Source: a virus. Taken from it: a DNA stretch of 64,000 nt. Shown in pieces: positions 20,328-55,567 of this stretch. The first letter of the stretch is position 1; every line of letters begins with the position of its first letter. Under the pieces are notes generated by a model. The model saw only the letters and a list, made by a program, of their open reading frames with translations, made no database searches and was not told where the DNA came from. The position numbers were made by a program, and so were the translations under genes. The DNA is taken from the IMG/VR virus record IMGVR_UViG_3300051212_000701, positions 21,951 to 85,950 of that record. The stretch is one strand, 5' to 3'.

Positions 20328-20785
20328 TATACTTCTTCCAGACCTATGCTGACATCCCAAAATTCTTGAGCAGCATCTGATGACTTAGACTTAACATTTC
20401 TTTTTACAAGTGTATGACTACACTCAGAAAATACAACATTAATAACTTCATCTCTTGCAGTAACTGCATTATAAGAAATTTTTAACTTAAAAGAACCTTT
20501 CCCCTTGTTATGATAAAAAGTTTTTAAATCTACTGCTCCATATCCACCATCTATTGTCATTGAGCTGTATGAAGGTAGCATGCGCCAATTTGTAGAAATT
20601 GTTTTTTTGTCAGCAGTAAATAGTTTACGCATAGTTCCATTTGCCATTCTTTGCTGTTTTTCAATTCTATTATTTCCTATACTTACTGGCTCTCTGTTGT
20701 GCTCAGTTAATTTAGTCCATGTCGGATTGTCGTCAGTTGATGTATCTATATATAATACAGAACCTACTGGTAATGTTATTGCCAT
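20327..20785 (-). CDS. distal-tail-like minor tail protein, 152 aa
   Basis: It follows directly after the tape measure gene, the usual place of the distal tail (Dit) or first minor tail protein. The sequence is beta rich (LPVGSVLYIDTSTDDNPTW, KGSFKLKISYNAVTARDEV) with basic loops. It is preceded by a strong AAGGAGG site, and its stop overlaps the next ATG (TAATG). The Dit role is from synteny; at 152 residues it is shorter than most Dit proteins and may correspond only to the ring-forming N-domain. Confidence 0.55.
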   Translation of the reverse strand: MAITLPVGSVLYIDTSTDDNPTWTKLTEHNREPVSIGNNRIEKQQRMANGTMRKLFTADKKTISTNWRMLPSYSSMTIDGGYGAVDLKTFYHNKGKGSFKLKISYNAVTARDEVINVVFSECSHTLVKRNVKSKSSDAAQEFWDVSIGLEEV

Positions 20786-23700
20786 TATGACCTCCTTGGA
20801 CCCATTTCTGAAATAGATCTTCTATTTCCTTTTTCTAGAACTTCTATCGTGGCTGTTGTAACTTTTCTTACTAGAGCATCCATATTCTCTCCTTCAGACT
20901 GCATAATTGTTTGGTTTAAAACAATTGGCTGTTGAGGTGTTGATTGCGCTGCCAGACCTGCAAAACTCTTTTGTCCAGACTGAACATTGTATGTTGGAGT
21001 TGCATATGGAATATTATTTAAGTCTGGAATAACCATATTACCATACAGTAATTCTGGACCCTTATCTCCAACTATAGTAGGAACTGTTGGATCTATTGAT
21101 GTAATTCCATATCCAGCTTTTACTACAGAGAATCCAGCATATCCAGCTTCTCCTGTAACCCGCCATCTTTGTCCATTTTTATCTGTAAATGTAGAACCTA
21201 CCCACGTTCCAGTTCTATCCCCAGCTCCTCTAAATTGTTTTTTAGCTCCTGACTTTTCTAATTCTGATGCTGTTACATATGTTCCTCCAGCATACTGACC
21301 AGACTTCTTTGGGTCATCAGAAAACTTAACTGGAGTTGCTGGTGTAGGACCTGCTGAGGCTTTCATGTAATCGATATAATCTTTTCCGCCAATAATAAGC
21401 CTATCTGCAGTTATTGACTTAGATGCTAGATCTCCTGCTTGGTTTGGCTTGCTAGAACCACCATTTGGCAAACCATACCATTGACCATTAGCACCCTTCT
21501 TTGGCCCCAAATTAACTCCTGCGGCTTCTGTAGGAGCAACTAATCCCGCAAGCAAATATTTTCCAGTCTCGGTTTTTCTAAAGTCTGCTTCTGTCATTCC
21601 TGGATTTTCATCTAAATATTTTACAAGATTTAAATTATAAGCAGTTTGAGCAGCATTTAAACCATCAATAGTTTTATTTAGTGCAGCTATCTTTTTATCA
21701 AGTGTTGCTAGGCTCTCTCCAGCTGTAGCTGCTGCATCTGCAAGCTTTTGATTTGCTGCATTAATCTTTTCAATTTCAGCAATAAGAGGAGCATTTGCTT
21801 TATCTCTTGCTGCTTCAATTGCTCTTGTTTGTCCTACTGTTTGAAGATTTTGTACAGCAGACTCATATCTAAGTCTTGCTTGCGCTGCCTGTTCTGTATT
21901 GCCAGTAGACTCTGCAAACTGTAATTCAAGTCTTGCTGACTCCATTTCACGATTAAGATCAGCATCTTCTTTTGCTGCATTAAGAGCCTTTATACGTGCA
22001 TCAGCTAATTTATTTGTAGCATCAATCTGCTTTTGAAGAGCTTTAATTCTATCTCTTGCAGATATTTGATCTTTAACGTTTTGTCCCTTTGCTTGAATTG
22101 CAAGTTTTTCTCTTTGAGCCTGTAGCTTTCCTAGCGCAGAGTATTCATCAGCCAAAGCCCCGCCTGCTGACTTATTAGCATCAATAACCTTTTGCTGTAT
22201 AAGCATTCCCATGTTATACAAGGCTTGAGTTTGAGCAGCGTTAAGTTGAGAAAGATCTCCTTGTAGTCCTAAAGCTTGTAGTCTTAACTTTTGCCATACG
22301 CTTACTACTGTATCTGATGTATTGGCAAGCTCTTTAATTGCTGGATTAGCTTTTGCCATTTCTTTAATGGTTGCTGCAGTTAAAGTAGTTTGTTTGTACT
22401 GGCTCTGATTCAAATAATCCATCATTTGAATTTCAGCTTGGTACATACTAATTTTTTCAGTTTTTCCTGTTTTATCTTTCTTTGCAGCATCTTCGCTCTT
22501 TTTAATAATTTCTTCGATTCCAGCGTCTACTGCGGTTAATGCAGTATTTAATGCCGCTGCTTGTGACTGAGCATTGCCAAGTCTTGCTGCAGTGTTATAT
22601 GACTTAAGTGCACCCATAGCGGCGCCTTTGGCATCTTGCATAGCATTAAAATCTTTGTTTTGAACAGTAGCTGCAGCTGCCATATCTGCATTTTTAGATA
22701 GAGCAAACATTGCATAAATTTTCTTTGTAGCTTCATCTGCAGACATTCCCGCAGCAATAAACTGTTGTTTAAATCTAACTGCCAAGTCGCCAAGCTCTGC
22801 TTTTTTAGTAGAATTAATTAATTTAATTTGTTCATCAAAAGCACCCTTAACTTCTTCTTTAAGCTTACGATATTCAGTAATAGTCATCTTGATAGGTATG
22901 CCTGCTTGAGTCATACTTTCGTATGCAAGCTTATTTGCTTCCATTAGGTCTTTTGATCTTTGAATGCTGTCTTTAATCTTTTGATTATAATCTACAAACT
23001 TAATTCCTGCTTTTTGAGCAGCTTCTGCTGTAAGTCCGTACCCTAAAGCATTAAGTTTTTGTTGTTCTTGATATTTTTTAAATACAGTAAATCCTGCAGT
23101 TAATGCAGTTGTTATTCCAGTAATTGCTAATCCTAATGGAGTAGCTGACGCAAGAACTCTTCCAAGAACTGGACCAAGCTTTGACATAACAGCTCCTGCT
23201 TGAGAACCTGCTTTACCCATATTAATTAAATTAGCTGAAGTTTGAGCTAATGGTTTAAGTGTTGATGTTGCAGATTGAGGAAGCTTGCTTGTAACACCTC
23301 TTGTCATTCCGCTCATTGCACCCATAGGAAGTAAGAATGGAAGGATGTTTGATACATTGCTTATTGCAGCTCCAGGAGTTCCTCCTACCTTGTCGCCCAA
23401 CATATTGCCAAGCAAAGGTATTCCCATCGCTGCTAATAGTCCTGCTACTAAACCTCCTCCACGATAACCCTTAACTGGACCACCATTTGCATACCCCATT
23501 GGGCCGTTGCCTGAACCTACGTATCCACCTGAAGCATATCCTCTTCTCCACTTTCTATCAAGCATTTTACTTTCATAAGTGGTTGGAACACGTCTTGTAT
23601 TTAATCTTCCGCCTAATAATCTAGGATCTGAAAGTATTCCCTTTCTAAACATTTTACTTCCACCAGTTGTTACTGATTGCTTTTTACCAGATTCGTCTGT

Positions 23701-26700
23701 TATAACTACTGTTGTTTTTCCACCTTTTCCTGAAGCAGATGTTGGGCTAGTATAAAAGAATGGATCAGAACCTGAAGCAGCTTTAGCTTCAGCAGCTGTC
23801 ATAACTGGAAGATCTTGTCCACCTGTGTATGCTTTAAAACTTGCTGGCCTAAATCCTTTAGGCATGTTTGCTATTGTCATTGCTGTCTTAAAAGATTCTC
23901 TTTCTGACATAGGAAGAGTTCTAAGAGTATCTTTTCTTGCAAACTGATAAATTTGTGCTAGTGCGTCATCATGATAGACTCTGCCTTCAGACAATCCTTT
24001 TGCTGCTTCAAGAAGTCTTCTTTTAAATACTTTTTTCTGTGCTTCATTTAATCCTGGAAGATACCTAAATAACCTATCGTTTCTTGCAGCAAGAGCTCTA
24101 ATTAATTCAGATCTAGTTAGTCCTCTTTTACCCATTCGTAATGCTTGGTTTTCTTCTGGATAAAGCCCAAGTATATTTCTGTCAAAAACTTCTACTGGAT
24201 GATTTGGAAGTGCTCTTGCAAATGATTCTGTTCCTTTAGGAAGATGTTGTCCATAAACATCTGGTAGTTCATGTGCATACATCGCCATTGGAAGGCTTGC
24301 ATGTGCTCCAACTGGGCCCCTCGTCATATCAATCTTTAGATCATTTAGTTTATCTAAGAGAGGAACACCTAGCTTATCTACAGCTTCTTTACGTAGTACA
24401 TATTCACCCTCAGTAAGCCAAGCTGGTACTGTGTCTGTTCCGCTTGGACCACCGCCAGCCATATAGACTGGGCCACCAGTTGCCATACGACGTGGGCGTG
24501 TTGTTTCAATGCTGTATGGAGCACCAAATGTTTTTACCTTAAGATTTTGTGCAATTCTATTTAGTAGACCTCTAGTTCTTCCAGGTCTAGCTAGTTCTTT
24601 CATATTACTTTTGCCAGTAACTGGATCAACTACTGGCTGATTAAGCAATGGAACATTTGTAAGATTAATACTTCTTCCTTGAGCTCCTGCAATATCTGTT
24701 GCTGCGCCAGCCATCATGGCTTCTATCTCTGCATTTAAAGCAATTATTTTTGATCTTGCTTGGTCTACACTTATTTTTCCAGCCTGTAGGTCAGCAACTA
24801 TTGCAGCTGAGGCTTGTGCAGCGTTTGCAGTTAGCTCTGTCATCTTTGGCAACAAAGCTTGATAAGAGTCGGAAAGTTCTGATGTAATTAATCCTGTTCG
24901 CCCTACTTCTGTTTTTAATGCCTTTATTTCTGCATCAGACTGCATGGCAAGGGCTGCTGTCATGGCATGCCATCTAGCTGCTTCTTCTGCAACAATTCCA
25001 GTTGAAACTCCCTTGATTGATGTAAGACCTTCTATCTTTGGCAAATCTCCAGACATATACATCTGTGGATTTCCACCAATTTTTTGATTAACTTTAGGAG
25101 CTCCAGGAACTGTTCCAAATATTGTCTGTGTCATTCTTTCATCTGTTGTCATTCCAGAAACAGGGTTTAGATGTGACATTGATCTTGTGTCTGTTGGGCT
25201 AATTAAAGGATGTGAAGGGTTTACTTGTCTGCCAGCAACAATTGTTCCACCCATTGTTGTAAACATAGGTGTGCTTGATATTTGACCAGTTTTAGCCTTT
25301 GCTTCTAATATTGATAGTTCAGCTATCAGTCCTTCTATTGCAGTTTTTAATACTGTTGCTGCCTTTGCGTCACTATAAAATGTAGACTCAATTAAAGATC
25401 CAGCTTTTTGTGCCGCCATCATTTGTGGCGTTAACATCTTCCAGCCTTCTCCGCCCTTGAAAAAAGCTTTAAATGCAGCTGCGCCTTTAACTATATAACC
25501 AAAAAAGTTAGCAAGAACACCAGTTAGCATAATTATAGGACCTATAACTGCTGTAAGACCTGTAACAAATGTTAAAATTGTTTTAACTGGTCCAGGTAGT
25601 TTATTTACGAATTGCACTATGCTATCTACAACATTAACAAAGAATGTTTGTACCTTAAGGAATTCTTCTCCTATACCTGCAAGGTTAGCTTTTAAAGACT
25701 CGACTGCTCTCTTGTATCGTCCAGATGCTGACTCTGTAACAAGCCTTAATTCTCGCTCTGCTACTGATGCTAGGTCCTGAGAGCTTGCTTTCATTAGATC
25801 TAAAACTTGTAAAGTTTGGCTTCCTTCTTTTCCTAGATTTTCAAACAATGCCTGCATTCTTGCAAACTGAAACTTTCCGAAAAGTTGTTCAATTGCCTGT
25901 GATTTTTGTAAAGGATCGAGATTATCTAAAGCGGCTTGCAAATCCATAATCATTGCTGTTAGGTCGCCAGCGTTGTCTGTTACTATACCTTTTAGATCAA
26001 TTCCCATTTCTGCAAATTTTTCTGTTGCAACTTTTGTTGGGTTAATCAAAGAAGCAAGTGCCGACTTAAGTGCATTTGCGCCTTCTGTTGCGTTAACTCC
26101 GCCTTCACGCATAGCTGTTAGATATAATGCTAAATCTTTAACACTTCCGCCTAAACCTTGTATTACTGGACCAGCTTTAGGGATCGCTTCAATTAAATCT
26201 GCTAGGCTTGTTGAGGTTTGGTTTTCAACTGAGTTTAAAAAGTTAATAGATTCTGTTAGCTGATCTGTGTTTTGTTTAAAAGCTGTTTGAATTGCTAAAG
26301 TTGCTTTCATAGCATCTTGTCTGTCAACTTCACCAAGTACAGCAAGACGGCTTGTTTCTTTTACAGAGCCTATAAGCTCTGCACCTTGTTGTCCTGTTGC
26401 TGCAATATCAGCAGCTAACTGTATTGTTTCTTTAAATGATGTTCCATATGCAGCCGATAACTCTTTTGCCGTAGAAGAAACATCTCTTCTAATCTTTGCA
26501 AGGTCTGCAGCAGATGTTGCTGCAACTCCACCATAAACCTTTGTTAATCTTGTAAGTTCTGCATCTGCTTCTCTAAAAGCTTTTGCTGCGGCAGCACCCA
26601 TTGCTGCTAATGGGACAGTCAATCCTACAGTTAACTGACGACCTGCCCACTGAGTATTTTTACCCCAGTTAATTAGTTGAACTCCGCCATCTTGAATAAC

Positions 26701-27189
26701 CTTATTCATAATAGCAAGCTCTTGTCTTGCTAAAGCTGTTTTATTTTTTACCGCATCTAAGCCTTGTGGAATATGAACATTGTATTGCATAAGCCCTTGA
26801 GCATTTTTGCCCAAGGGTTGCACAACTGCGTTTTGTAAAGCTACCTGCTGTTTTGCAAGCTCTCTAATTAGTCCGCCTGAAGTTTTTGTATGCTCTTGAA
26901 AAGTTCTAAAGTAATCTCTTAGCTTTAATTTTCCAGAGTCTAGGTTTTTGCCAAACTTTTCTACATCTGAAGTTAAGGTTACAAAGTGTGTTGAAAACTG
27001 CCCAGTTCTTCTTAAATTTTCTGCAAATGATCGATTCATTACAGCAATCTGATTTGCTAATTTTGCATCAGATTGAATTAACTGAGCCTGTAATTTAGAT
27101 AGAGAAGCTGTTACCCTATTGACATCTGCAATAAGATTTGAAAAATCAGCATTGGCAACTATATTAGTTACAATGTTTTCATCAGCCAT
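20785..27189 (-). CDS. tape measure protein, 2134 aa
   Basis: Sets tail length. The N-terminal 500 residues are the PhageMin_Tail/TP901-type helical core (ADAELTRLTKVYGGVAATS, VNATEGANALKSALASLINP). Hydrophobic spans lie near residues 535-570 (FVTGLTAVIGPIIMLTG) and 1335-1360, as in other tape measures. Glycine-rich linkers (GGYVGSGNGPMGYANGG) surround a globular insert at about residues 975-1115. The C-terminal half has long coiled coils. At about 1.5 A per residue the tail would be roughly 300 nm. It directly follows the frameshifted chaperone genes, the canonical order. Confidence 0.92.
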   Translation of the reverse strand: MADENIVTNIVANADFSNLIADVNRVTASLSKLQAQLIQSDAKLANQIAVMNRSFAENLRRTGQFSTHFVTLTSDVEKFGKNLDSGKLKLRDYFRTFQEHTKTSGGLIRELAKQQVALQNAVVQPLGKNAQGLMQYNVHIPQGLDAVKNKTALARQELAIMNKVIQDGGVQLINWGKNTQWAGRQLTVGLTVPLAAMGAAAAKAFREADAELTRLTKVYGGVAATSAADLAKIRRDVSSTAKELSAAYGTSFKETIQLAADIAATGQQGAELIGSVKETSRLAVLGEVDRQDAMKATLAIQTAFKQNTDQLTESINFLNSVENQTSTSLADLIEAIPKAGPVIQGLGGSVKDLALYLTAMREGGVNATEGANALKSALASLINPTKVATEKFAEMGIDLKGIVTDNAGDLTAMIMDLQAALDNLDPLQKSQAIEQLFGKFQFARMQALFENLGKEGSQTLQVLDLMKASSQDLASVAERELRLVTESASGRYKRAVESLKANLAGIGEEFLKVQTFFVNVVDSIVQFVNKLPGPVKTILTFVTGLTAVIGPIIMLTGVLANFFGYIVKGAAAFKAFFKGGEGWKMLTPQMMAAQKAGSLIESTFYSDAKAATVLKTAIEGLIAELSILEAKAKTGQISSTPMFTTMGGTIVAGRQVNPSHPLISPTDTRSMSHLNPVSGMTTDERMTQTIFGTVPGAPKVNQKIGGNPQMYMSGDLPKIEGLTSIKGVSTGIVAEEAARWHAMTAALAMQSDAEIKALKTEVGRTGLITSELSDSYQALLPKMTELTANAAQASAAIVADLQAGKISVDQARSKIIALNAEIEAMMAGAATDIAGAQGRSINLTNVPLLNQPVVDPVTGKSNMKELARPGRTRGLLNRIAQNLKVKTFGAPYSIETTRPRRMATGGPVYMAGGGPSGTDTVPAWLTEGEYVLRKEAVDKLGVPLLDKLNDLKIDMTRGPVGAHASLPMAMYAHELPDVYGQHLPKGTESFARALPNHPVEVFDRNILGLYPEENQALRMGKRGLTRSELIRALAARNDRLFRYLPGLNEAQKKVFKRRLLEAAKGLSEGRVYHDDALAQIYQFARKDTLRTLPMSERESFKTAMTIANMPKGFRPASFKAYTGGQDLPVMTAAEAKAASGSDPFFYTSPTSASGKGGKTTVVITDESGKKQSVTTGGSKMFRKGILSDPRLLGGRLNTRRVPTTYESKMLDRKWRRGYASGGYVGSGNGPMGYANGGPVKGYRGGGLVAGLLAAMGIPLLGNMLGDKVGGTPGAAISNVSNILPFLLPMGAMSGMTRGVTSKLPQSATSTLKPLAQTSANLINMGKAGSQAGAVMSKLGPVLGRVLASATPLGLAITGITTALTAGFTVFKKYQEQQKLNALGYGLTAEAAQKAGIKFVDYNQKIKDSIQRSKDLMEANKLAYESMTQAGIPIKMTITEYRKLKEEVKGAFDEQIKLINSTKKAELGDLAVRFKQQFIAAGMSADEATKKIYAMFALSKNADMAAAATVQNKDFNAMQDAKGAAMGALKSYNTAARLGNAQSQAAALNTALTAVDAGIEEIIKKSEDAAKKDKTGKTEKISMYQAEIQMMDYLNQSQYKQTTLTAATIKEMAKANPAIKELANTSDTVVSVWQKLRLQALGLQGDLSQLNAAQTQALYNMGMLIQQKVIDANKSAGGALADEYSALGKLQAQREKLAIQAKGQNVKDQISARDRIKALQKQIDATNKLADARIKALNAAKEDADLNREMESARLELQFAESTGNTEQAAQARLRYESAVQNLQTVGQTRAIEAARDKANAPLIAEIEKINAANQKLADAAATAGESLATLDKKIAALNKTIDGLNAAQTAYNLNLVKYLDENPGMTEADFRKTETGKYLLAGLVAPTEAAGVNLGPKKGANGQWYGLPNGGSSKPNQAGDLASKSITADRLIIGGKDYIDYMKASAGPTPATPVKFSDDPKKSGQYAGGTYVTASELEKSGAKKQFRGAGDRTGTWVGSTFTDKNGQRWRVTGEAGYAGFSVVKAGYGITSIDPTVPTIVGDKGPELLYGNMVIPDLNNIPYATPTYNVQSGQKSFAGLAAQSTPQQPIVLNQTIMQSEGENMDALVRKVTTATIEVLEKGNRRSISEMGPRRS

Positions 27190-33061: not shown

Positions 33062-34408
33062 TTAGTTAAATATTTCGTTCACGGAACCGAGGAAAGAACC
33101 GTTCCATTTAGATTTCTTGATTGTTACCTCTTCTGATCGGCCAAGATCGGAAGACTTCTTAATTGCTGTTTCTGCCTCAACGGCGTCTACACGCTTTTGT
33201 ACTCCTGAAAGAGTACCTTTTACTTCATTTACAGCATTTGATAATGCTGTGTGTTGTTCTGCCAACTCTGTAATTCTAGCATCTACGCTCTTGCTGAATG
33301 TCTCAACTGTTTCCTTAATTGATGCAACTTGAGCAGCATTTGATTCGGATGCCTTTGTCAAAGTATCCGAGAAAAAGCCTTTTAGTTCGCCCAACATTTT
33401 TGCAAAATCAGGTTCTGCATTGACCTCAACTTCTGATACGTCGGCTGCTTTCTCCAGAGTTTCGGCAGGAGCGTCTTCTGCAGGTGCTTCTGCTGCTTCT
33501 GCGGCTGGAGCCTCTGCTTCAACTGCAACTGCTTCGGCTGGAGCCTCTGCAACTGGAGTTGTCTCTTCTGCAGCTACAGCAGTCTCTTCGACAACTGCTA
33601 CTGCTTCTGTATTTTCTGACACTTCATTACCTCCTTCTGCGTTTGCCTGTTTTGCTAATTGTGTATCAGGCAACGTAAATCTTGATTGCTTATATGCATC
33701 AAGAATCTTATCTATCTCTTTTGACTTATTTACATCTGAGCTTTCAACCCATCCAATAAGTTCCGCTGGCTTTCCAGATACTGGAGAGTCATATGTTTTT
33801 TCTGTTGAGATAAAAACAGAATCACTTTCTTCACAATAAAAAATATTTTCAACTTTTGTTTCTGCAGCAATTCCTTTAAAAACAAGCTGACCATTCATTT
33901 TTTGAATTGACAAAATGTTGCACAGCTCGTTTGCTGGAGAATCAACAATTGAAAGCTCAAGCAAAGAATATTCTTTAATAAATCTAGTTGATTTACCTGT
34001 TGATTTATTTACTTCATTATCAGATTCAATTATTTTTCCGCCAATAGAAAATCCAGACAATGTTCCGTCAAGAACTTTTTCCCATGTGTCTTGTGCGCCC
34101 TTAGATATGTATGCGTCTACATAAACTCCATTATAAAATTCTTTTGTTGTTGGATCATAAAAGGTTTCTGGCTTAAAAGAAATCATTTTGCCTACGGCAT
34201 TTGATCCGTGCATCTCACGAATGTTTCCACGAAAAGATTCAAAAGCTTTGATGGATGCTTCTGCTGTTACCACATCACCTGTTTGATCTAGGTTATCTAG
34301 TGTGGCAAATCCAGATACAGTTCTCTTTTCACGGTTTACCTTAGTAAAAGGAACCGAAAGAGAGATGCTGTTTCCATCGCTGGACCATAATGATTTTTCA
34401 ATATTCAT
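33062..34408 (-). CDS. HK97-type prohead protease fused to a scaffold-like domain, 448 aa
   Basis: Residues 1-165 are an S78 prohead protease: the catalytic histidine is H67 in REMHGSNAVGKM, the serine S121 in LSGFSIGGK, and the conserved ELSIVDSPAN follows near 151-160. Residues about 270-330 are an alanine/glutamate/proline-rich low-complexity stretch, followed by a coiled coil (DTLTKASESNAAQVASIKE, VDARITELAEQ) of scaffold type. The protease matures the capsid and would degrade the fused scaffold. The ATG is 7 nt from a TATAAT with no Shine-Dalgarno sequence, so the mRNA looks leaderless. Confidence 0.88.
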   Translation of the reverse strand: MNIEKSLWSSDGNSISLSVPFTKVNREKRTVSGFATLDNLDQTGDVVTAEASIKAFESFRGNIREMHGSNAVGKMISFKPETFYDPTTKEFYNGVYVDAYISKGAQDTWEKVLDGTLSGFSIGGKIIESDNEVNKSTGKSTRFIKEYSLLELSIVDSPANELCNILSIQKMNGQLVFKGIAAETKVENIFYCEESDSVFISTEKTYDSPVSGKPAELIGWVESSDVNKSKEIDKILDAYKQSRFTLPDTQLAKQANAEGGNEVSENTEAVAVVEETAVAAEETTPVAEAPAEAVAVEAEAPAAEAAEAPAEDAPAETLEKAADVSEVEVNAEPDFAKMLGELKGFFSDTLTKASESNAAQVASIKETVETFSKSVDARITELAEQHTALSNAVNEVKGTLSGVQKRVDAVEAETAIKKSSDLGRSEEVTIKKSKWNGSFLGSVNEIFN

Positions 34409-47544: not shown

Positions 47545-48480
47545 TTAGCTTGACTTTATGTAATATGTAATTATGCAGATACCTGATCCGCCATTGTTTC
47601 CGCCGCCGCCTCCGCCGCCTGAACCAGTGTTTGCTTGTGCATCTGCTCTAGGGGTTCCAACATAGTCACCGTGACCTTGTCCACCACCGTTTGAACCGCC
47701 TCCGCCTGAACCTCTTCCTGAGCCGCCACCACCGCCTGCAAGACCGTATAGCCCTGCGCCTCCACGTCCGCCGACAGAATGTCTTCCTGAGTCATTAGAA
47801 TTAGCCCAACCTGGACCTCCTCCAGATGATCCTTCTGAAGAGTATCTCGAACCACCGAAGTATCCTGAATATCCTCCACGGTTTGGCCAAACATGACCGT
47901 ATTCTCCAGCTCCGTTAGCTCCGCCGCCGCCTCCGCCTGCGCCCCATGAATTTACCCAGTTTCCTTGTCCGCCTCCGCCTGAGCCTCTTCCTGTAATATT
48001 ATCTGCTCCTGGTCCACATGAACCAGACTGTCCGTCTCCTTGTGTTGAACCTCCACCGTATGCAACCATATAGAATGGCTGACCTGAAGTTCCAAATGTT
48101 GAGTTTCCGCCTTGGTTATTACAACTTCCGCCGTTTGCAATACCGATCTGAATTGATGATCCTGTTGCAATTGATGAAATGTCAAGTTTTCTTCTAAGTA
48201 ATTGTCCAGCTCCACCTCCGCCATGATTTGTTGACCCGTTAGAGCATCCACCGCCGCCGCCTCCGCCTACAAGGATTACGTCTATATATGGAGCACTGTT
48301 TACTGGTCTTGTCCAAACTCCACTACTTAAAATAGATACTTGATATGAATTATAAAATCCTGACAAGTTTGCAGCAATTAAAGGAACAGCAACAGATGTT
48401 GCAAGAGTTGTTGTTGCACTTTGTATTTGTGTATCTAGTCCTGGGACATAAATCTGATTAATTGTTCCGTATGTTGCCAT
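47545..48480 (-). CDS. glycine-rich adhesin-like fibre protein, 311 aa
   Basis: A short start with TYGTINQIYVPGLDTQIQSA and a strand (GVWTRPVNSAPYIDVILVGG) lead into about 200 residues of Gly-rich sequence (GGSCNNQGGNSTFGTSGQPF, GRGSGGGGQGNWVNSWGAGG), ending with a strand (GGSGICIITYYIKSS). It is a paralogue of the gene at 49009-50004 and shares the same N-terminal YxPGL motif. It lies in the same Gly-rich adhesin family as 39883-40779. Predicted polyglycine II core and receptor-binding tip. Confidence 0.75.
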   Translation of the reverse strand: MATYGTINQIYVPGLDTQIQSATTTLATSVAVPLIAANLSGFYNSYQVSILSSGVWTRPVNSAPYIDVILVGGGGGGGCSNGSTNHGGGGAGQLLRRKLDISSIATGSSIQIGIANGGSCNNQGGNSTFGTSGQPFYMVAYGGGSTQGDGQSGSCGPGADNITGRGSGGGGQGNWVNSWGAGGGGGGANGAGEYGHVWPNRGGYSGYFGGSRYSSEGSSGGGPGWANSNDSGRHSVGGRGGAGLYGLAGGGGGSGRGSGGGGSNGGGQGHGDYVGTPRADAQANTGSGGGGGGGNNGGSGICIITYYIKSS

Positions 48481-49008: not shown

Positions 49009-50004
49009 TTACGCTTTGATGTACCATTCAATAATGGCAACACCGCTACCTCCTCTATTGCCTACTCCGTTAGAATGGCTGTTTCCTCCGCCGCCTGAAC
49101 CAGTACCATTTCTACCTTCTCCACCAGAGTTATCTGTTGTTGGTGAGCCTCCCGCTCCGCCACCTGCAGAACCTCCACCGCCAGATCCGCCGCCTCCGCC
49201 GCCTCCGCCTGCAAGACCGTATTGCCCTTGTCCTCCACGTCCGCCGCAACCAATCCAAGATGTCCAGCTATGATTCATTCCGTGTCCGCCACCAGATGCT
49301 CCTGGACCATAACCAAATCCTCCTGGATATCCAGATCCTCCACGTCCGTTTTCAAGTGTTGTGTTAATAGCGTTTTGTCCAGCCTCTCCTGCTCCGCCTC
49401 CGCCGCCGCCTGCGCCATACTGATAATCTCCACCAGCTCCTCCACCGCCACCAGAGCCTCCTCCGTTTTGATTTCCCATTCCTGCGCCCATTGAACCGTT
49501 GTTGCCGCTATTACCAGTTCCATATGGATATCCGCCTCCGCCGCCGCCGTAAGCAATAACGTAAAATGGATTTCCGTTTACACCAAATGTTGAGTTACCA
49601 CCATTGTTACCGTTCGAGTTTCCTGAAACTGCTGGTCCACCATTTCCAATAGTTACTGGGATGTTTCCTCCTACTGGAACTGAAGAAATGTCTAACCATC
49701 TTTCAACTAGTTGTCCAGCTCCACCACCGCCTGAACCATTGTGAGACCATGAGTGTCCGCTTCCACCTGAACCACCGCCACCAACAAGAATTAATTTGAT
49801 TGCTGGTCCTGAGTTTGCTGGTCTTGTCCAGTTTCCTGAGCTGTATATTCTAGTTTCTCTAGGAAGGTACATTGAGCTAACTCCGCCAGCCGCAATTGCT
49901 TCTGCTGTGATACCAGCGTTGAGTCCTGCTGTAATAGCTCCATTAATTGTTGAGCTTAGACCAGGCAGGTATATTGACTGCGATGTGTTGGAAACCTGTG
50001 ACAT
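49009..50004 (-). CDS. glycine-rich adhesin-like fibre protein, 331 aa
   Basis: The N-terminus SQSIYLPGLSSTINGAITAG, then a strand (GNWTRPANSGPAIKLILVGG) and about 230 residues of Gly-rich sequence ([40 protein letters not shown]), ending RGGSGVAIIEWYIKA. It is the most glycine-rich of the three copies. The shared strand W-T-R-P-x-N-S-x-P and final I-I-x-Y-I-K strand show duplication from the same ancestor as 47545-48480. It has an AAGGAG site. Predicted receptor-binding tip. Confidence 0.75.
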   Translation of the reverse strand: MSQVSNTSQSIYLPGLSSTINGAITAGLNAGITAEAIAAGGVSSMYLPRETRIYSSGNWTRPANSGPAIKLILVGGGGSGGSGHSWSHNGSGGGGAGQLVERWLDISSVPVGGNIPVTIGNGGPAVSGNSNGNNGGNSTFGVNGNPFYVIAYGGGGGGYPYGTGNSGNNGSMGAGMGNQNGGGSGGGGGAGGDYQYGAGGGGGGAGEAGQNAINTTLENGRGGSGYPGGFGYGPGASGGGHGMNHSWTSWIGCGGRGGQGQYGLAGGGGGGGGSGGGGSAGGGAGGSPTTDNSGGEGRNGTGSGGGGNSHSNGVGNRGGSGVAIIEWYIKA

Positions 50005-50789: not shown

Positions 50790-51704
50790 CTATTCTATTG
50801 TCAAATAAGTCAATATTCCAACCAGGACTACTGGTACAACTAAGGCCAGTATAGCCCTATAGTGCTTCTTTATTGGAGTGTCAAAATAGGACTTGGTAAT
50901 AACCAAACATTTGTGGGTCGGAGACAGCATATAGCCTGCATAGTCTATTGCAAAAAATAGAGGCAAATATTCTACTCCATAAACTGTTGCCGATAAAGCT
51001 GTAAAGCCTGCAAACTTTCCACTACTTCCCAAGGCAAAGCTTGCAATAAATCCAGCTACGGCTACGGCAACCAGCAAGTCCTTTTCATGTGCTGAATTTA
51101 CCCAGGCATTAATTTGATCAAAGTTTGCTTTTACAATATTGCTCAATATTATAACAATGCCTACAAAAAGAAGGGTAGTGGCATATGACTTAATTTGTTT
51201 TCTATCTTCTTTCCAGGTGGTCTTTTCAATTGGTCTATCTATATTAATATCTACTTCATCTTCTTTTACAATTTTAAATATATAGTAAAAAATAACAATT
51301 GCTGCCGTCGCTAAGAGAGGCCAAATTCTTCCCATAAACTCTGCATAAGAAATGCTTAATGCTGCCATAGGGACAAGTACTGTTGCTTCTAGTGGAGACC
51401 AAAAGTAGTAGTGATGAGTGGATAGATAGTCTATGATTCCAAATATTTTTTTCTTTGAACTATTTGGAGCAATTGTGTCTAAGGCACCTGCTGATATTGA
51501 TGCTCTTCCATTTACTGGTAATACTCCTGACACCAAGGATATAAGAGCTACAACGGCTCTTTTAGATCTTACTCTTAAAGCAATAAATTTATATACTGGT
51601 AAAAATACTTGAGTTTTTTTAGCCCAGAAAGACAGGGACATAACTATTGATAGCAACAAAAGATACTGCTGATTGTCTGTAATTAAATTAGTTGTTATTT
51701 CCAT
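50790..51704 (-). CDS. DUF401/CitMHS-like integral membrane transporter, 304 aa
   Basis: A multi-span membrane protein with about 7-8 hydrophobic helices (for example LLLLSIVMSLSFWAKK, IWPLLATAAIVIFYYIF, TLLFVGIVIILSNIV). It carries the pattern of the DUF401 branch of the ion-transporter superfamily: LVSGVLPVNGRASISAGA, then HHYYFWSPLEATVLV, and SPTHKCLVITKSYFDTP near the C-terminus. In place of the usual P-G-G loop it has V-N-G. DUF401 members are permease-like and their substrates are unknown. Such a transporter is unusual in a phage. The start overlaps the U32-methyltransferase gene by 17 bp, so they are co-translated. Confidence 0.7.
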   Translation of the reverse strand: MEITTNLITDNQQYLLLLSIVMSLSFWAKKTQVFLPVYKFIALRVRSKRAVVALISLVSGVLPVNGRASISAGALDTIAPNSSKKKIFGIIDYLSTHHYYFWSPLEATVLVPMAALSISYAEFMGRIWPLLATAAIVIFYYIFKIVKEDEVDINIDRPIEKTTWKEDRKQIKSYATTLLFVGIVIILSNIVKANFDQINAWVNSAHEKDLLVAVAVAGFIASFALGSSGKFAGFTALSATVYGVEYLPLFFAIDYAGYMLSPTHKCLVITKSYFDTPIKKHYRAILALVVPVVLVGILTYLTIE

Positions 51705-53349
51705 TTTTTTTCTCTACTACTACTAAGTATAATCCGTTCCACCAATTAGACTCGGACTCTATAGAATTAAGCACTTTCTTACTATATAATATTTTTAATC
51801 CTGAATCAACTATTCCTTTATGAGCACCTTTAACTACATCTGTCCAATTTGCGTCATCAAAAATTAATATGCATGTCTTTGCAAAAGATTTAGAATAATA
51901 CTTGACTGCATTTTTAGTTGATTCAAAATCATGAGGTCCGTCATAAAAAAATAAATCTATTTCAGATATCTCAGACAAATTTACCTTAAACATATCTGAA
52001 TTACAAATATAAACTTTGTTTTCTCCTATATAAGGCTTTATATTATTCTTAAACTCTGCAAGACTATTTGTATTTGGAGTATCCCAATCAGACCTGACTG
52101 CTTTTGGGGCATCTTGCCACATATCCACAAAATAAGCAGACAAGTTATTGTTCATTAGAGCTGATGCTGCTGTAGCTCCTTGATAAGAACCGACCTCTAA
52201 ATACTTAGAAGATGTTTTGGCAAGACTATTGATTAAGGACTGAACTCTGGTTGAAGTTAGTCCTGGTATGTTTATTTCTAAAGTACTATTTACTGAATCT
52301 ACAAGTTCTTTTGCTACTGCTGCAACTTTTTCATTTATATGCTTTCCATATTTAGCTGCTACTATTTTATCGCAATATCCACAATCCCAGCAGTCAAATT
52401 TGCAGTTTTTAATTTTATTTCTCCATATTGCTATGGGCTTTTCAACTAGATTTGTTTCTTCAATAAAATCATTAAAAGTATCAAAAAGAATATCTTCTTT
52501 ATTAGCATACCTTGTAATTATATCCATTGTCTCTTTTAACCTTGTATGCGATTCTCTGCCGTGCATTTTAATTACATCAATACCTAGGTCATCTATAAAC
52601 TCTTGCCAGTCCTGCCGCCAAGGCGGGAAGTTAGCTGTCTTTAAAGATACAGCAAAGTCTTCATGGTCCCATTTTGGGCAAGAAACTCTGCTTATCGGAT
52701 CATTAAAATACTGAGGTCCTGTAGTTCTAGTATTATTGAACTGATAGTGCTCATCCATCATTATACAGCCTCCGTAGCACCCTTCATTAGCCAATAAGGA
52801 CAACTTGACGCCAAATTGCTGCTTAGCTTTTTTGAAGCGCTTTAGCTTCTCGTGGTCTCTCATAAGGTCTCTATCTAAGTTGATATAGTCAAAGCCAGCC
52901 TTGGCCAACTTTTCAATATCTCTAGGCTCAGACACATTTCTTAATATTGTATTCTTTACAAAAAGATCTGGAAAAGCTTTTTTAATTTGCCCTGTTGCCA
53001 TCCAATGGGTATGTGGTATTGTAGCGGACCTTATGCCCGCATTGTAGACAGGCTCAAAGCTTGTAATAAATAAATCTAAATTCTCTTGAGAAGGCCTGAC
53101 CTCTATATTATTAAAAACAGCAGAAGCTGGTATTCCAGTTTCTGCCTGAACATATAGAGCCATATTGATTAAATAATCGTAATCTTCTTCTTTGTTTACA
53201 AACACGTCTCCCATGGCGTCTTGTGTAAAAGGAGGAATTCTGCAAGTAAAATAAAAATCATATATATACTGTTTTTGTTTTTTTAAAAAACTTACAAAAT
53301 CAGCAAACTGATTTTCATTTAGTTTAGGATTTAAAGGAACGCTAAACAT
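51688..53349 (-). CDS. U32-like TIM-barrel domain fused to a class I methyltransferase, 553 aa
   Basis: Residues 1-350 resemble a peptidase-U32/UbiU-type TIM barrel: SATIPHTHWMATGQIKKAFP, then INLDRDLMRDHEKLKRFKK, KLSLLANEGCYGGCIM (C191, C195), C224, and a C316-x3-C320-x2-C323-x2-C326 cluster that could hold an Fe-S centre. Residues about 370-553 are a Methyltransf_24-type SAM-dependent methyltransferase: KYLEVGSYQGATAAS (motif I), ISEIDLFFYDGPHDFEST. U32 proteins without protease activity take part in Fe-S-dependent hydroxylations. A fusion with a methyltransferase suggests a modification enzyme. It is an odd passenger among fibre genes. Confidence 0.6.
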   Translation of the reverse strand: MFSVPLNPKLNENQFADFVSFLKKQKQYIYDFYFTCRIPPFTQDAMGDVFVNKEEDYDYLINMALYVQAETGIPASAVFNNIEVRPSQENLDLFITSFEPVYNAGIRSATIPHTHWMATGQIKKAFPDLFVKNTILRNVSEPRDIEKLAKAGFDYINLDRDLMRDHEKLKRFKKAKQQFGVKLSLLANEGCYGGCIMMDEHYQFNNTRTTGPQYFNDPISRVSCPKWDHEDFAVSLKTANFPPWRQDWQEFIDDLGIDVIKMHGRESHTRLKETMDIITRYANKEDILFDTFNDFIEETNLVEKPIAIWRNKIKNCKFDCWDCGYCDKIVAAKYGKHINEKVAAVAKELVDSVNSTLEINIPGLTSTRVQSLINSLAKTSSKYLEVGSYQGATAASALMNNNLSAYFVDMWQDAPKAVRSDWDTPNTNSLAEFKNNIKPYIGENKVYICNSDMFKVNLSEISEIDLFFYDGPHDFESTKNAVKYYSKSFAKTCILIFDDANWTDVVKGAHKGIVDSGLKILYSKKVLNSIESESNWWNGLYLVVVEKKNGNNN

Positions 53350-53354
53350 TACTC

Positions 53355-53906
53355 CTACAGATCTACTTTATAAGTGGTGTCGTCTGGATTAAGCATTATG
53401 CCAAATCTTTTGCTTAATAGTATACCACTTTCTACCCAGTCCTTGCAAGAATCTATCTCTTTTATTATTTCGCCTTTTCTTTTTAATAAATCATATTCAC
53501 TTTCGTATTTGGCAAAACGTAAGCATACTGGAGTTGATTTTGACATCTTTATTTTATTATAATAATATTTGTCCAGCATAAAATGCATTAACGCTTTATT
53601 AATAAGATAAGCGTTATATTTATCTTCTTCTGTTAAAACGTATTTATATTTATCTTTATATGGCTCTAATCTTGATTTGTCTATTTGATCATACGATGGA
53701 GTATTCTCTCTAACAGATATTTCTCCTTTATATTTATTTGCAAACTTCCAGGCTAAAGCTACCTGCTCTGGAACAACAATACAAGTTGGCATTACTATAT
53801 ATGGCAAAAGACTTTCTTCTACGCATCCGACCAAAATTCCAGAACAATCACCTATTTCTTTAAAATATGGCTTATTGTCTTCTGGGTTGTATAAGAAATA
53901 AATCAT
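53355..53906 (-). CDS. hypothetical protein, 183 aa
   Basis: A charged, lysine- and tyrosine-rich protein (EDKYNAYLINKALMHFMLD, KYESEYDLLKRKGEIIKEID). The N-terminus is a beta part (IYFLYNPEDNKPYFKEIG). No family recognised. It overlaps the preceding gene by 4 bp and lies 5 bp before the U32-methyltransferase gene, so it could be part of that small unit. Nothing indicates a structural role. Confidence 0.5.
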   Translation of the reverse strand: MIYFLYNPEDNKPYFKEIGDCSGILVGCVEESLLPYIVMPTCIVVPEQVALAWKFANKYKGEISVRENTPSYDQIDKSRLEPYKDKYKYVLTEEDKYNAYLINKALMHFMLDKYYYNKIKMSKSTPVCLRFAKYESEYDLLKRKGEIIKEIDSCKDWVESGILLSKRFGIMLNPDDTTYKVDL

Positions 53907-54634
53907 TCTACTTCTTCCCAGAGCCCCTGTGATGACTCAGGTAGTTCTAGTCTTTTCTTTACCTCAACCTGCAATTTTTCTAGATGGGTGTTGGTCTCTA
54001 TTGCTTTTTGTACTGCATGATCTAAAGCTATCTCCCTTATTTGGGGAGGCAGTTGATCAATGGCCTCCATGTTACCGCTATTTACTCTTCCATAAAACAT
54101 TAAATCATAAGCTGCTTGAGCACCTAGCCTTATTCCCCAAAGCTCTGCCTCTAAACGCTCTTCTTCTTCATGGTTTCCAATTATGTCCATAATTCTTCTA
54201 CCATCAGGAAGCAAACCCTCTTCAGATTCATTAAATCTATCTATAAGCATCATATGCTTATCTCTTTCTTCATAAAGAAGGCTTATAGTGATTTTATGAT
54301 TATTTAAAACTCTTTCTTTTTCTTTAATAGTTAATTCATGTAATTTAATTTTTGCAGGAGATGTTTCTTGAGAAATAAGTTCTTTTTCTAGCTCTATTTC
54401 TAATCTAACTCTTTCTATTTTTAATTCTTGATCTGTTATAAGATTTTCTCTAGATCCTAACTCTAGAAGCAGCTGTCTAAGTTTTCCAAACGGGGTAAAT
54501 TGTGCTCCTGCAACAAAGTTGTCTATTTTAAATACGGGAACTCCCCAGTGTCTATTTGCAGCATACAGCAATATGTCTTGCTGTGATTTTGTGTAGCCTG
54601 AAACGTCCGACGTTAAATCGTTGATATATCTCAT
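53903..54634 (-). CDS. coiled-coil-rich hypothetical protein, 243 aa
   Basis: Residues about 65-150 form long charged helices (QELKIERVRLEIELEKELIS, KLHELTIKEKERVLNNHKI), flanked by short alpha/beta ends. It is not recognised. It has a weak AGATAGG site and overlaps the next gene by 4 bp. A possible partner or chaperone for the modification genes or fibres. Confidence 0.5.
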   Translation of the reverse strand: MRYINDLTSDVSGYTKSQQDILLYAANRHWGVPVFKIDNFVAGAQFTPFGKLRQLLLELGSRENLITDQELKIERVRLEIELEKELISQETSPAKIKLHELTIKEKERVLNNHKITISLLYEERDKHMMLIDRFNESEEGLLPDGRRIMDIIGNHEEEERLEAELWGIRLGAQAAYDLMFYGRVNSGNMEAIDQLPPQIREIALDHAVQKAIETNTHLEKLQVEVKKRLELPESSQGLWEEVE

Positions 54635-54649
54635 TATATTGCCTATCTA

Positions 54650-55567
54650 CTAAGATCTATATGCAGAGTACGCAGAACTTCTTCCTGGAACTCCCTTTGA
54701 TTGCATTGAGCCGCCGCCTTCATATCCTGAATCGGTAGCATAATTAAAGCGCCAAGCACGGTTGTTTTGCTCTCCATTATACATTCCTACCATGTATTGA
54801 TGTGCTTGTCCCATATCAAAATTTTCTTCTCCAGAGTTTCCAATTGGTTTGCTTACGCTACCAACATTCGACTCTGTAGCAACACTAAATCTTCTTAAAT
54901 TGTATCCTCCAGAATAGCTTCCTTCATTTCCCGCATACAAGTAGTTTAATTTAGATGAAATGCCCTTTTGTTGTCCGTGAGCTCCATTACAAGGAGAACA
55001 CGCTTGAGCCTCTGTTGCAAATGTTAATTTAACTCCATTATCGTCACCATAATGAAAACCTTTTGTTTCGTGATATATTGCAGACATTGTTTGACCACTA
55101 TTTCCGCAAGCTTTACCAATGCTGCTGAGCCAGGTTTGTGTTGAAAATTGAAATCTCATAATTGCATTGTTTCCGTCTGCTGGAGCCCCATAAGCTCTAG
55201 TTTGTTCTTGATGCATAATCGTTCCAGCATTTCCAACGTTGTAAGGTGCGGAAGGACCTATCTGAGAGGTTTCTGTTCTCATGCTATATCTATTTGTTTG
55301 GCTTGAATTACCGCCTACTGTATTATTAGCTTTAAGAACATAGGCAAAAGTGTCATCACACATTCCGCCTGGGTATGCAGTAGAGTTATTTAACTGACCA
55401 CCTAGATCTACAGTTGTATCTGTTGAGTGAGCTGTTCTATTTACATTAGTCCACGGAGAGCTATTTCTATAACCAGCAAGGATATAACCCGTAGTGATTA
55501 CTTGTCTCAACAAGAATGACTTTGGCCCGCCTGAGCCACCCATATATCTATTTTGTGGAAATGGCAT
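54650..55567 (-). CDS. beta-propeller-like virion protein, 305 aa
   Basis: Repeated blade-like segments of about 45-50 residues share an aromatic-Gly-Gly and a polar x-D/N pattern: GYILAGYRNSSPWTNVNRT, DDTFAYVLKANNTVGGNSS, GFHYGDDNGVKLTFATEA, YLYAGNEGSYSGGYNLRRF, QYMVGMYNGEQNNRAWRF. Similar repeat proteins occur among aquatic phage fibre genes and are thought to be beta propellers. Several cysteines are present (CDD, KACGN, CSPCNG). It precedes a tail chaperone-like gene in its gene unit. Probably binds the host surface. Confidence 0.6.
   Translation of the reverse strand: MPFPQNRYMGGSGGPKSFLLRQVITTGYILAGYRNSSPWTNVNRTAHSTDTTVDLGGQLNNSTAYPGGMCDDTFAYVLKANNTVGGNSSQTNRYSMRTETSQIGPSAPYNVGNAGTIMHQEQTRAYGAPADGNNAIMRFQFSTQTWLSSIGKACGNSGQTMSAIYHETKGFHYGDDNGVKLTFATEAQACSPCNGAHGQQKGISSKLNYLYAGNEGSYSGGYNLRRFSVATESNVGSVSKPIGNSGEENFDMGQAHQYMVGMYNGEQNNRAWRFNYATDSGYEGGGSMQSKGVPGRSSAYSAYRS

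Follow-up and report, generated by a model that had tools for sequence, protein, structure and literature searches.

A fused U32-like/methyltransferase enzyme in a fibre-region gene block shared by unrelated phages, with a possible role in finishing a surface protein

Introduction

Why would a phage carry a membrane transporter gene next to a gene for a two-domain enzyme in the middle of its fibre region? The question is raised by a 64,000-nucleotide stretch of viral DNA (hereafter the window; bases 21951–85950 of the 85,950-base IMG/VR record IMGVR_UViG_3300051212_000701), in which genes for a DUF401-family membrane protein, a fusion of a U32-like barrel with a methyltransferase, and a 183-residue protein follow one another. 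A preliminary description made from the letters alone treated these genes as a passenger unit and suggested a metabolic or cell-surface function. We find instead a module that is kept over large divergence, is common to unrelated phage lineages, and also contains small partner proteins and a repeat-rich protein. The reading we tentatively favour, at somewhat less than an even chance, is a mobile fibre-locus cassette for the hydroxylation and O-methylation of a protein on the phage surface, in which DUF401 would be an accessory carrier.

Results

The unit extends upstream and is under purifying selection

The three open reading frames (ORFs) first described are indeed present, all on the (−) strand: 50790–51704 (304 amino acids, aa), 51688–53349 (553 aa) and 53355–53906 (183 aa). 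The DUF401 and fusion genes overlap by exactly 17 bp, and a gap of 5 bp separates the end of the 183-aa gene from the start of the fusion gene. Since the 183-aa gene in turn overlaps an upstream 243-aa gene by 4 bp, the coupled unit extends past 53906. Ahead of the 243-aa gene stands a gene for a 305-aa repeat-rich protein (g305). Fibre and glycine-rich proteins flank the unit on both sides, which agrees with its earlier placement inside the fibre block. The genes are as follows.

50790–51704, (−): DUF401 membrane protein, 304 aa, minimised (PF04165, 1.5e-11; phrog_14035, 4.4e-76)
51688–53349, (−): fusion enzyme, 553 aa, predicted U32-like barrel plus class I methyltransferase (phrog_1458, 6.4e-165; T4-GC 354)
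53355–53906, (−): 183-aa partner protein (relatives ~240 aa; T4-GC 352 position)
53903–54634, (−): 243-aa partner protein (phrog_1409; relatives at T4-GC 353)
54650–55567, (−): g305, 305-aa repeat-rich fibre-region protein, candidate modification acceptor (phrog_1417, 6.5e-48)

Compared with relatives that differ at ~70% of synonymous sites, the fusion has a ratio of nonsynonymous to synonymous substitution (dN/dS) of 0.037, and DUF401 one of 0.04–0.05 (0.10 against the closer relative L084); both genes are therefore under purifying selection. These low values, and the retention of the block in ~100 non-redundant loci, confirm that the ORFs of the unit are real genes. The g305 family (phrog_1417), with relatives named 'sericin 1 precursor-like' at T4-GC 351, has the consensus RQIITTGY..GGY.NS.PW.NVN...TDTT plus repeated T-E/D-T/S motifs. 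The 183-aa protein had no match in Pfam, NCBIfam or PHROG.

The fusion enzyme travels with a repeat-rich fibre-region protein

We annotated 180 loci, 108 of them after removal of near-duplicates, with profiles built here and left uncurated; the counts of partner families come from clean seeds. Among the 87 non-redundant loci having at least 4.5 kb upstream of the fusion, the 243-aa family is present in all 87, the 183-aa family in 85 and the repeat protein in 84; the order of the 243-aa and 183-aa families is reversed in 19 loci. Downstream (87 loci having at least 5 kb), DUF401 occurs in 54, a Trp-halogenase-type flavoprotein in 32 and a 2OG-Fe(II) oxygenase in 49, the latter two identities having been assigned by Pfam, and 84 loci contain at least one of the three. 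DUF401 and the halogenase are seldom found together (7 of the 87 loci; Fisher p 5e-9, a value inflated by shared ancestry). Viewed from the membrane protein, the fusion lies upstream in 110 of 111 DUF401 loci, the single exception being S-CAM4, where the fusion is elsewhere in the genome. The co-occurrence that the preliminary description had proposed as a check is thus borne out. Because about one third of loci are without DUF401, we regard it as accessory.

Fusion matches were found in 123 of 50,697 phage records, all of them marine cyanophages. The repeat protein likewise matched 123 of these records; the organism names are distributed identically for both proteins, and in the rows listed the phages are the same. 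IMG/VR holds relatives of the fusion in at least 299 places, and in isolates the block corresponds to T4-GC 351–354, annotated as hypothetical.

Given that the block recurs in ~100 non-redundant loci, we reject a local passenger or chance cluster. A host-derived metabolic pathway was also rejected, since a scan of 84,980 genomes with two short peptide patterns gave three matches, none of them convincingly cellular: two (L108 and L109) carry fibre-region partner genes, and the third (L110) is a short contig encoding an N-domain-only protein. The host-metabolism reading is weakened by the linkage to the repeat protein. As for the initial impression that none of the products looks structural, it holds for the enzyme and DUF401, whereas the repeat-protein partner is probably structural.

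The N-terminal barrel is distantly related to U32 proteins

Pfam recognises only the C-terminal methyltransferase in the fusion, and PF01136 (Peptidase_U32) gave no match to it at E ≤ 1. An AlphaFold2 model built with 28 relatives predicts a barrel and a Rossmann-type domain (mean pLDDT 80, pTM 0.58). The parts of the enzyme are:

52315–53349, (−): predicted N-terminal U32-like (beta/alpha) barrel, residues 1–345 (Foldseek 5D88; hhalign)
52678–52779, (−): invariant Cys191, Cys195 (NEGC-x3-C) and Cys224 (28 aligned sequences)
52372–52404, (−): C316-x3-C320-x2-C323-x2-C326 cluster (CKFDCWDCGYC), putative Fe–S ligands (invariant in the alignment)
51691–52272, (−): predicted C-terminal methyltransferase, residues 360–553, with an L-E-x-G motif I (PF13578, 3.2e-9; Foldseek; invariant residues)

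When compared with the Protein Data Bank (PDB) by Foldseek, the modelled barrel half matched 5D88, the U32 protein MK0906, with a TM-score of 0.68 over its 247 residues (normalised to 5D88; E = 6e-6). This was the top score among the barrel matches listed; the MTHFR barrel reached 0.55. A U32 relation was not found by PDB sequence search or by hhalign alignment against single E. coli sequences, and only deeper profiles worked. An hhalign comparison of 37 phage N-domains with 20 U32 sequences, including UbiU, UbiV, TrhP and RlhA, gave a score of 46.3 (probability 79%), against 32.6 for the best of 160 column or block shuffles and 16.0 for the reversed profile. In a forced global alignment, the phage GIDVIKMHGRES falls over the U32 GVASLKIEGR motif, with KMHGRE on KIEGR. 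Profile and fold together support a distant relation of the N-terminal barrel to U32 proteins, above the shuffle controls. The profile–profile comparison that had been suggested for this half therefore came out in favour of the U32-like assignment, which is supported by fold and profile and has no Pfam match behind it.

There is a slim chance that the N-terminal domain is instead a TIM barrel unrelated to U32, of the xylose-isomerase or MTHFR type, and that it plays a structural part in what is mainly a methyltransferase. Such a proposal would fit the missing Pfam U32 match, a weak AP_endonuc_2 match (0.097) and the MTHFR score, but it does not sit well with the leading position of 5D88 or with a profile score that is in register and well above the shuffles. 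Moreover, the N-domain is the better conserved half of the fusion and is separable from the other: two ORFs encode the halves in L096 and L097, and only the N-half is present in L110. This behaviour argues for an activity of its own. In P-SSM3, only residues 1–391 match. The stand-alone U32-like N-domain of L110 (L110:91–1200) is 45% identical to the query and adjoins a dCTP-deaminase-like gene; L110 itself is a 3.9-kb contig binned as Cloacimonadota.

All seven cysteines in the pattern C191-x3-C195-x28-C224 plus C316-x3-C320-x2-C323-x2-C326 are invariant in the 28 aligned sequences, which is consistent with the presence of an Fe–S cluster.

The C-terminal half resembles O-methyltransferases

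The methyltransferase assignment of the preliminary description was upheld by PF13578, which scored 38.1 bits (cut-off 26.3; E = 3.2e-9). No sequence relative of this half was found in the PDB. In the Foldseek comparison it matched many O-methyltransferases, including catechol O-methyltransferases (COMTs) and MycF. Residues D470, D498, D499, A500 and N501 are invariant. By analogy with known metal-dependent O-methyltransferases of the COMT/TylF/TrmR type, D470, D498, D499 and N501 are possible metal ligands and may correspond to the acidic metal-binding triad of those enzymes.

U32 oxidases hydroxylate their substrates without O2, with prephenate as the likely oxygen source (PMC11574389). In Bacillus subtilis, the U32 protein TrhP makes 5-hydroxyuridine (ho5U), and the COMT-like TrmR then methylates its hydroxyl (PMC6599085) to give 5-methoxyuridine (mo5U). 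The joining of a U32-type domain to an O-methyltransferase-type domain therefore hints at a single chain that first hydroxylates and then O-methylates its substrate. TrhP and TrmR (YrrNO and YrrM) resemble the phage enzyme in that a U32 hydroxylase and a subsequent COMT-like O-methyltransferase are encoded together, and differ from it in being separate proteins that act on tRNA, whereas the phage version is a single chain linked to fibre genes.

The same parallel raises the possibility, decidedly unlikely in our estimate, that the fusion does the work of TrhP and TrmR on RNA or DNA, producing 5-methoxyuridine or a comparable hydroxylated and methylated base that aids phage translation or protects phage nucleic acid. 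The U32 hydroxylases TrhP and RlhA do act on RNA, and E. coli TrhP was the best-scoring U32 protein tested against the phage profile, if weakly. B. subtilis trmR adjoins the TrhP genes, oomycetes and a diatom have TrhO fused to TrmR (PMC6599085), and in one cyanophage the related enzyme CmoA has been co-opted to modify DNA (PMC12783734). However, in nearly every locus the fusion is tied to fibre-region genes and not to tRNA or nucleotide genes, relatives pair it with halogenases and 2OG oxygenases, and the window contains no tRNA genes. Nucleic acid modification would also leave DUF401 and the repeat protein unexplained.

DUF401 is likely a carrier and occupies an accessory position

The DUF401 assignment held up in Pfam, where PF04165 scored 44.8 bits (cut-off 24); a score of 48.6 bits fell far short of the TIGR00529 membrane protein equivalog cut-off of 378.4 bits. 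Phage and cellular members have the motifs LPxxGR..SAG, H and SPTHxC in common, and hairpin-like motifs are also kept. In the predicted structure (pLDDT 85), the best Foldseek matches were TRAP SiaQM, NaDC1 and INDY (TM 0.5–0.58, E 0.002–0.1). DUF401 is likely a carrier, and its fold may be of the ion-transporter (IT) type (TRAP/NaDC), a superfamily of elevators with two re-entrant hairpins. Cellular DUF401 proteins (PF04165, IT-type carriers) are like the phage protein in Pfam match and motifs and differ from it in the segments that the phage protein lacks and in its tie to the fusion. A survey of cellular DUF401 neighbourhoods in one phylum yielded few members and was uninformative.

In other phages, the companions found after the enzyme are Trp-halogenase-type and 2OG-Fe(II) enzymes, all modifying enzymes; neither kind was found in the 85,950 bases of the window's own record. 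VirX1 (PDB 6QGM), a characterised viral halogenase, is CPUG_00131 of cyanophage Syn10. To our knowledge, no role in the phage has been assigned to it. Its gene (L224:6998–8590) lies behind fibre-region genes, where its neighbours are another halogenase gene and several small genes in a row, one of them for a 240-aa 'IEFFS' protein. This family of 230–250 aa ('IEFFS..P.W'), which had no Pfam match, separates the fusion from DUF401 or the halogenase in other loci (L058:8566–9291, L082:7197–7931, L023:8992–9684). The VirX1 locus is like ours in adjoining fibre-region genes together with a ~240-aa family that also joins the fusion in many relatives; it differs in that the fusion is not in the stretch of Syn10 read and the window record is without a halogenase. 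The cassette may be the biological setting of VirX1.

On another reading, close to that of the preliminary description, a host metabolite such as a methoxylated aromatic, quinone, pigment or signal would be produced or altered by the cassette during infection, while DUF401 moves it or a precursor across the membrane. We consider this unlikely, even though UbiU/UbiV-type U32 chemistry has a small-molecule substrate, DUF401 can be likened to organic-anion carriers, and VirX1, from the fibre-adjacent Syn10 cassette, takes many free aromatics (PMC8407142). No biosynthetic backbone genes are linked to the unit, the gene with which it is strictly linked encodes a repeat-rich protein of the fibre region, and the same module is found in unrelated phage lineages.

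The cassette crosses phage lineages, and DUF401 is exchanged more often than the enzyme

The idea that the window derives from a T4-like cyanophage proved wrong. Its head protease (33062–34408) is nearest to those of the Streptomyces siphophages Wakanda and NootNoot (44% identical), and its tape measure protein (20785–27189) is 2134 aa long. No T4 late-promoter-like TATAAATA was found at a useful place ahead of the unit; the phage is not of the T4 kind. The window phage may infect freshwater actinobacteria.

Among 30 long related records, 11 have T4 Gp23, a different 11 have the window-type head protease, and none has both. DUF401 stands beside the fusion in both kinds of phage (for example L009 and L031 against L097, L105 and L187), and the cassette therefore crosses unrelated lineages while staying in the fibre region. 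Relative to the window, L009, L017 and L020 have fusions that are 81–84% identical and DUF401 proteins that are just 44–50% identical. Between the window and L084 (DUF401 at L084:1653–2567), DUF401 has a proportion of synonymous differences (pS) of 0.30, compared with 0.74 in the fusion. Recombination has thus occurred at the fusion/DUF401 border in this pair, and DUF401 is exchanged more often than the enzyme.

Exchange of DUF401 among phages with near-identical enzymes would suit a function at the host surface or in superinfection exclusion, with DUF401 in the host membrane blocking or altering the entry of rivals and the enzyme altering host surface groups. We judge this quite improbable: DUF401 retains the hairpin-like and SPTHxC motifs of its family, as expected for a carrier, and at least one third of loci are without it.

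Neighbouring genes

Positions 47545–48480 and 49009–50004 of the window encode a pair of apparently paralogous glycine-rich proteins of the fibre region; PF21722 matches the second, which alone was included in that scan. Long spurious ORFs run through both genes in other frames and on the opposite strand. Cyanophage genes annotated 'minor coat protein' beside the cassette (L114:10703–11413 and L112:4556–5272) match DUF6445 (PF20043), the latter below the cut-off; DUF6445 is not a coat protein family.

Discussion

On the reading we favour, the fixed core of the cassette would be the repeat-rich surface protein, the two partner proteins and the fusion enzyme. The U32-like, Fe–S-type barrel would carry out an O2-independent hydroxylation of an acceptor. 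The methyltransferase joined to it would then convert the resulting hydroxyl into a methyl ether, and one enzyme would perform both steps. The likeliest acceptor would be the surface protein encoded in the cassette or else a fibre from nearby, which the two small partners may present to the enzyme. An accessory slot after the enzyme would hold DUF401 here and flavin halogenases or 2OG oxygenases in other phages. DUF401 could act as an elevator-type carrier, probably for an organic anion consumed or produced by the reaction. We favour a virion surface protein as the target because the repeat protein and the partners almost always accompany the enzyme, because the cassette crosses lineages within fibre blocks, and because the replacement companions also decorate aromatic or side-chain positions.

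Several points weigh against this proposal. The canonical U32 cysteine motif, CX6CX15CX3C (PMC11574389), is not present in the fusion, which is consequently not a canonical U32 oxidase. The cysteine-rich loops were modelled with low confidence (residues 317–324 low), and for this reason the Fe–S cluster that the preliminary description considered probable can only be inferred, consistent as it is with the seven cysteines. The enzyme activities are predicted from sequence and fold. The phage DUF401 is without ~70 N-terminal residues of cellular members, and the window clade is without ~50 more in the middle of the protein; its fold matches are weak (E 0.002–0.1), and a membrane carrier is an odd component of a protein-modifying cassette. 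Finally, linkage to the repeat protein, whose place in the virion we infer, is not proof that it is the substrate, as the genes of one fibre module can co-travel.

Compared with the U32 oxidases (TrhP, RlhA, UbiU/UbiV; PF01136), the fusion has a similar 5D88-like barrel, an in-register profile, a KxxGR-like motif and many cysteines. It differs in having no PF01136 match, in its CX3CX28C plus CX3CX2CX2C cysteines, in the fused methyltransferase and in being phage-borne. The parts are already contained in phrog_1458, phrog_14035, phrog_1409, phrog_1417 and T4-GC 351–354, which are listed as families of unknown function. A literature search confined to open-licence papers found no account of these families together as a system, in line with the earlier remark that no such combination had been described, and nothing relevant on fibre modification in cyanophages or on DUF401 in phages. 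What is new is the arrangement and place of U32-like plus O-methyltransferase chemistry; the families themselves are catalogued.

It is possible, if on balance doubtful, that a mobile cassette common to unrelated phages serves to finish a protein on the virion surface chemically, by means of a fused O2-independent hydroxylase/O-methyltransferase or of flavin halogenases and 2OG oxygenases, with VirX1 then belonging to the same kind of locus. If so, the fusion would represent a new branch of U32-like proteins in which a second step is built in, and the cassette would provide a setting for VirX1 and for the many cyanophage 2OG oxygenases, which at present tend to be classed among the auxiliary metabolic genes. 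Phages would then diversify their surface by enzyme-installed chemistry as well as by changes in fibre genes, and such chemistry would be invisible to sequence-based host prediction.

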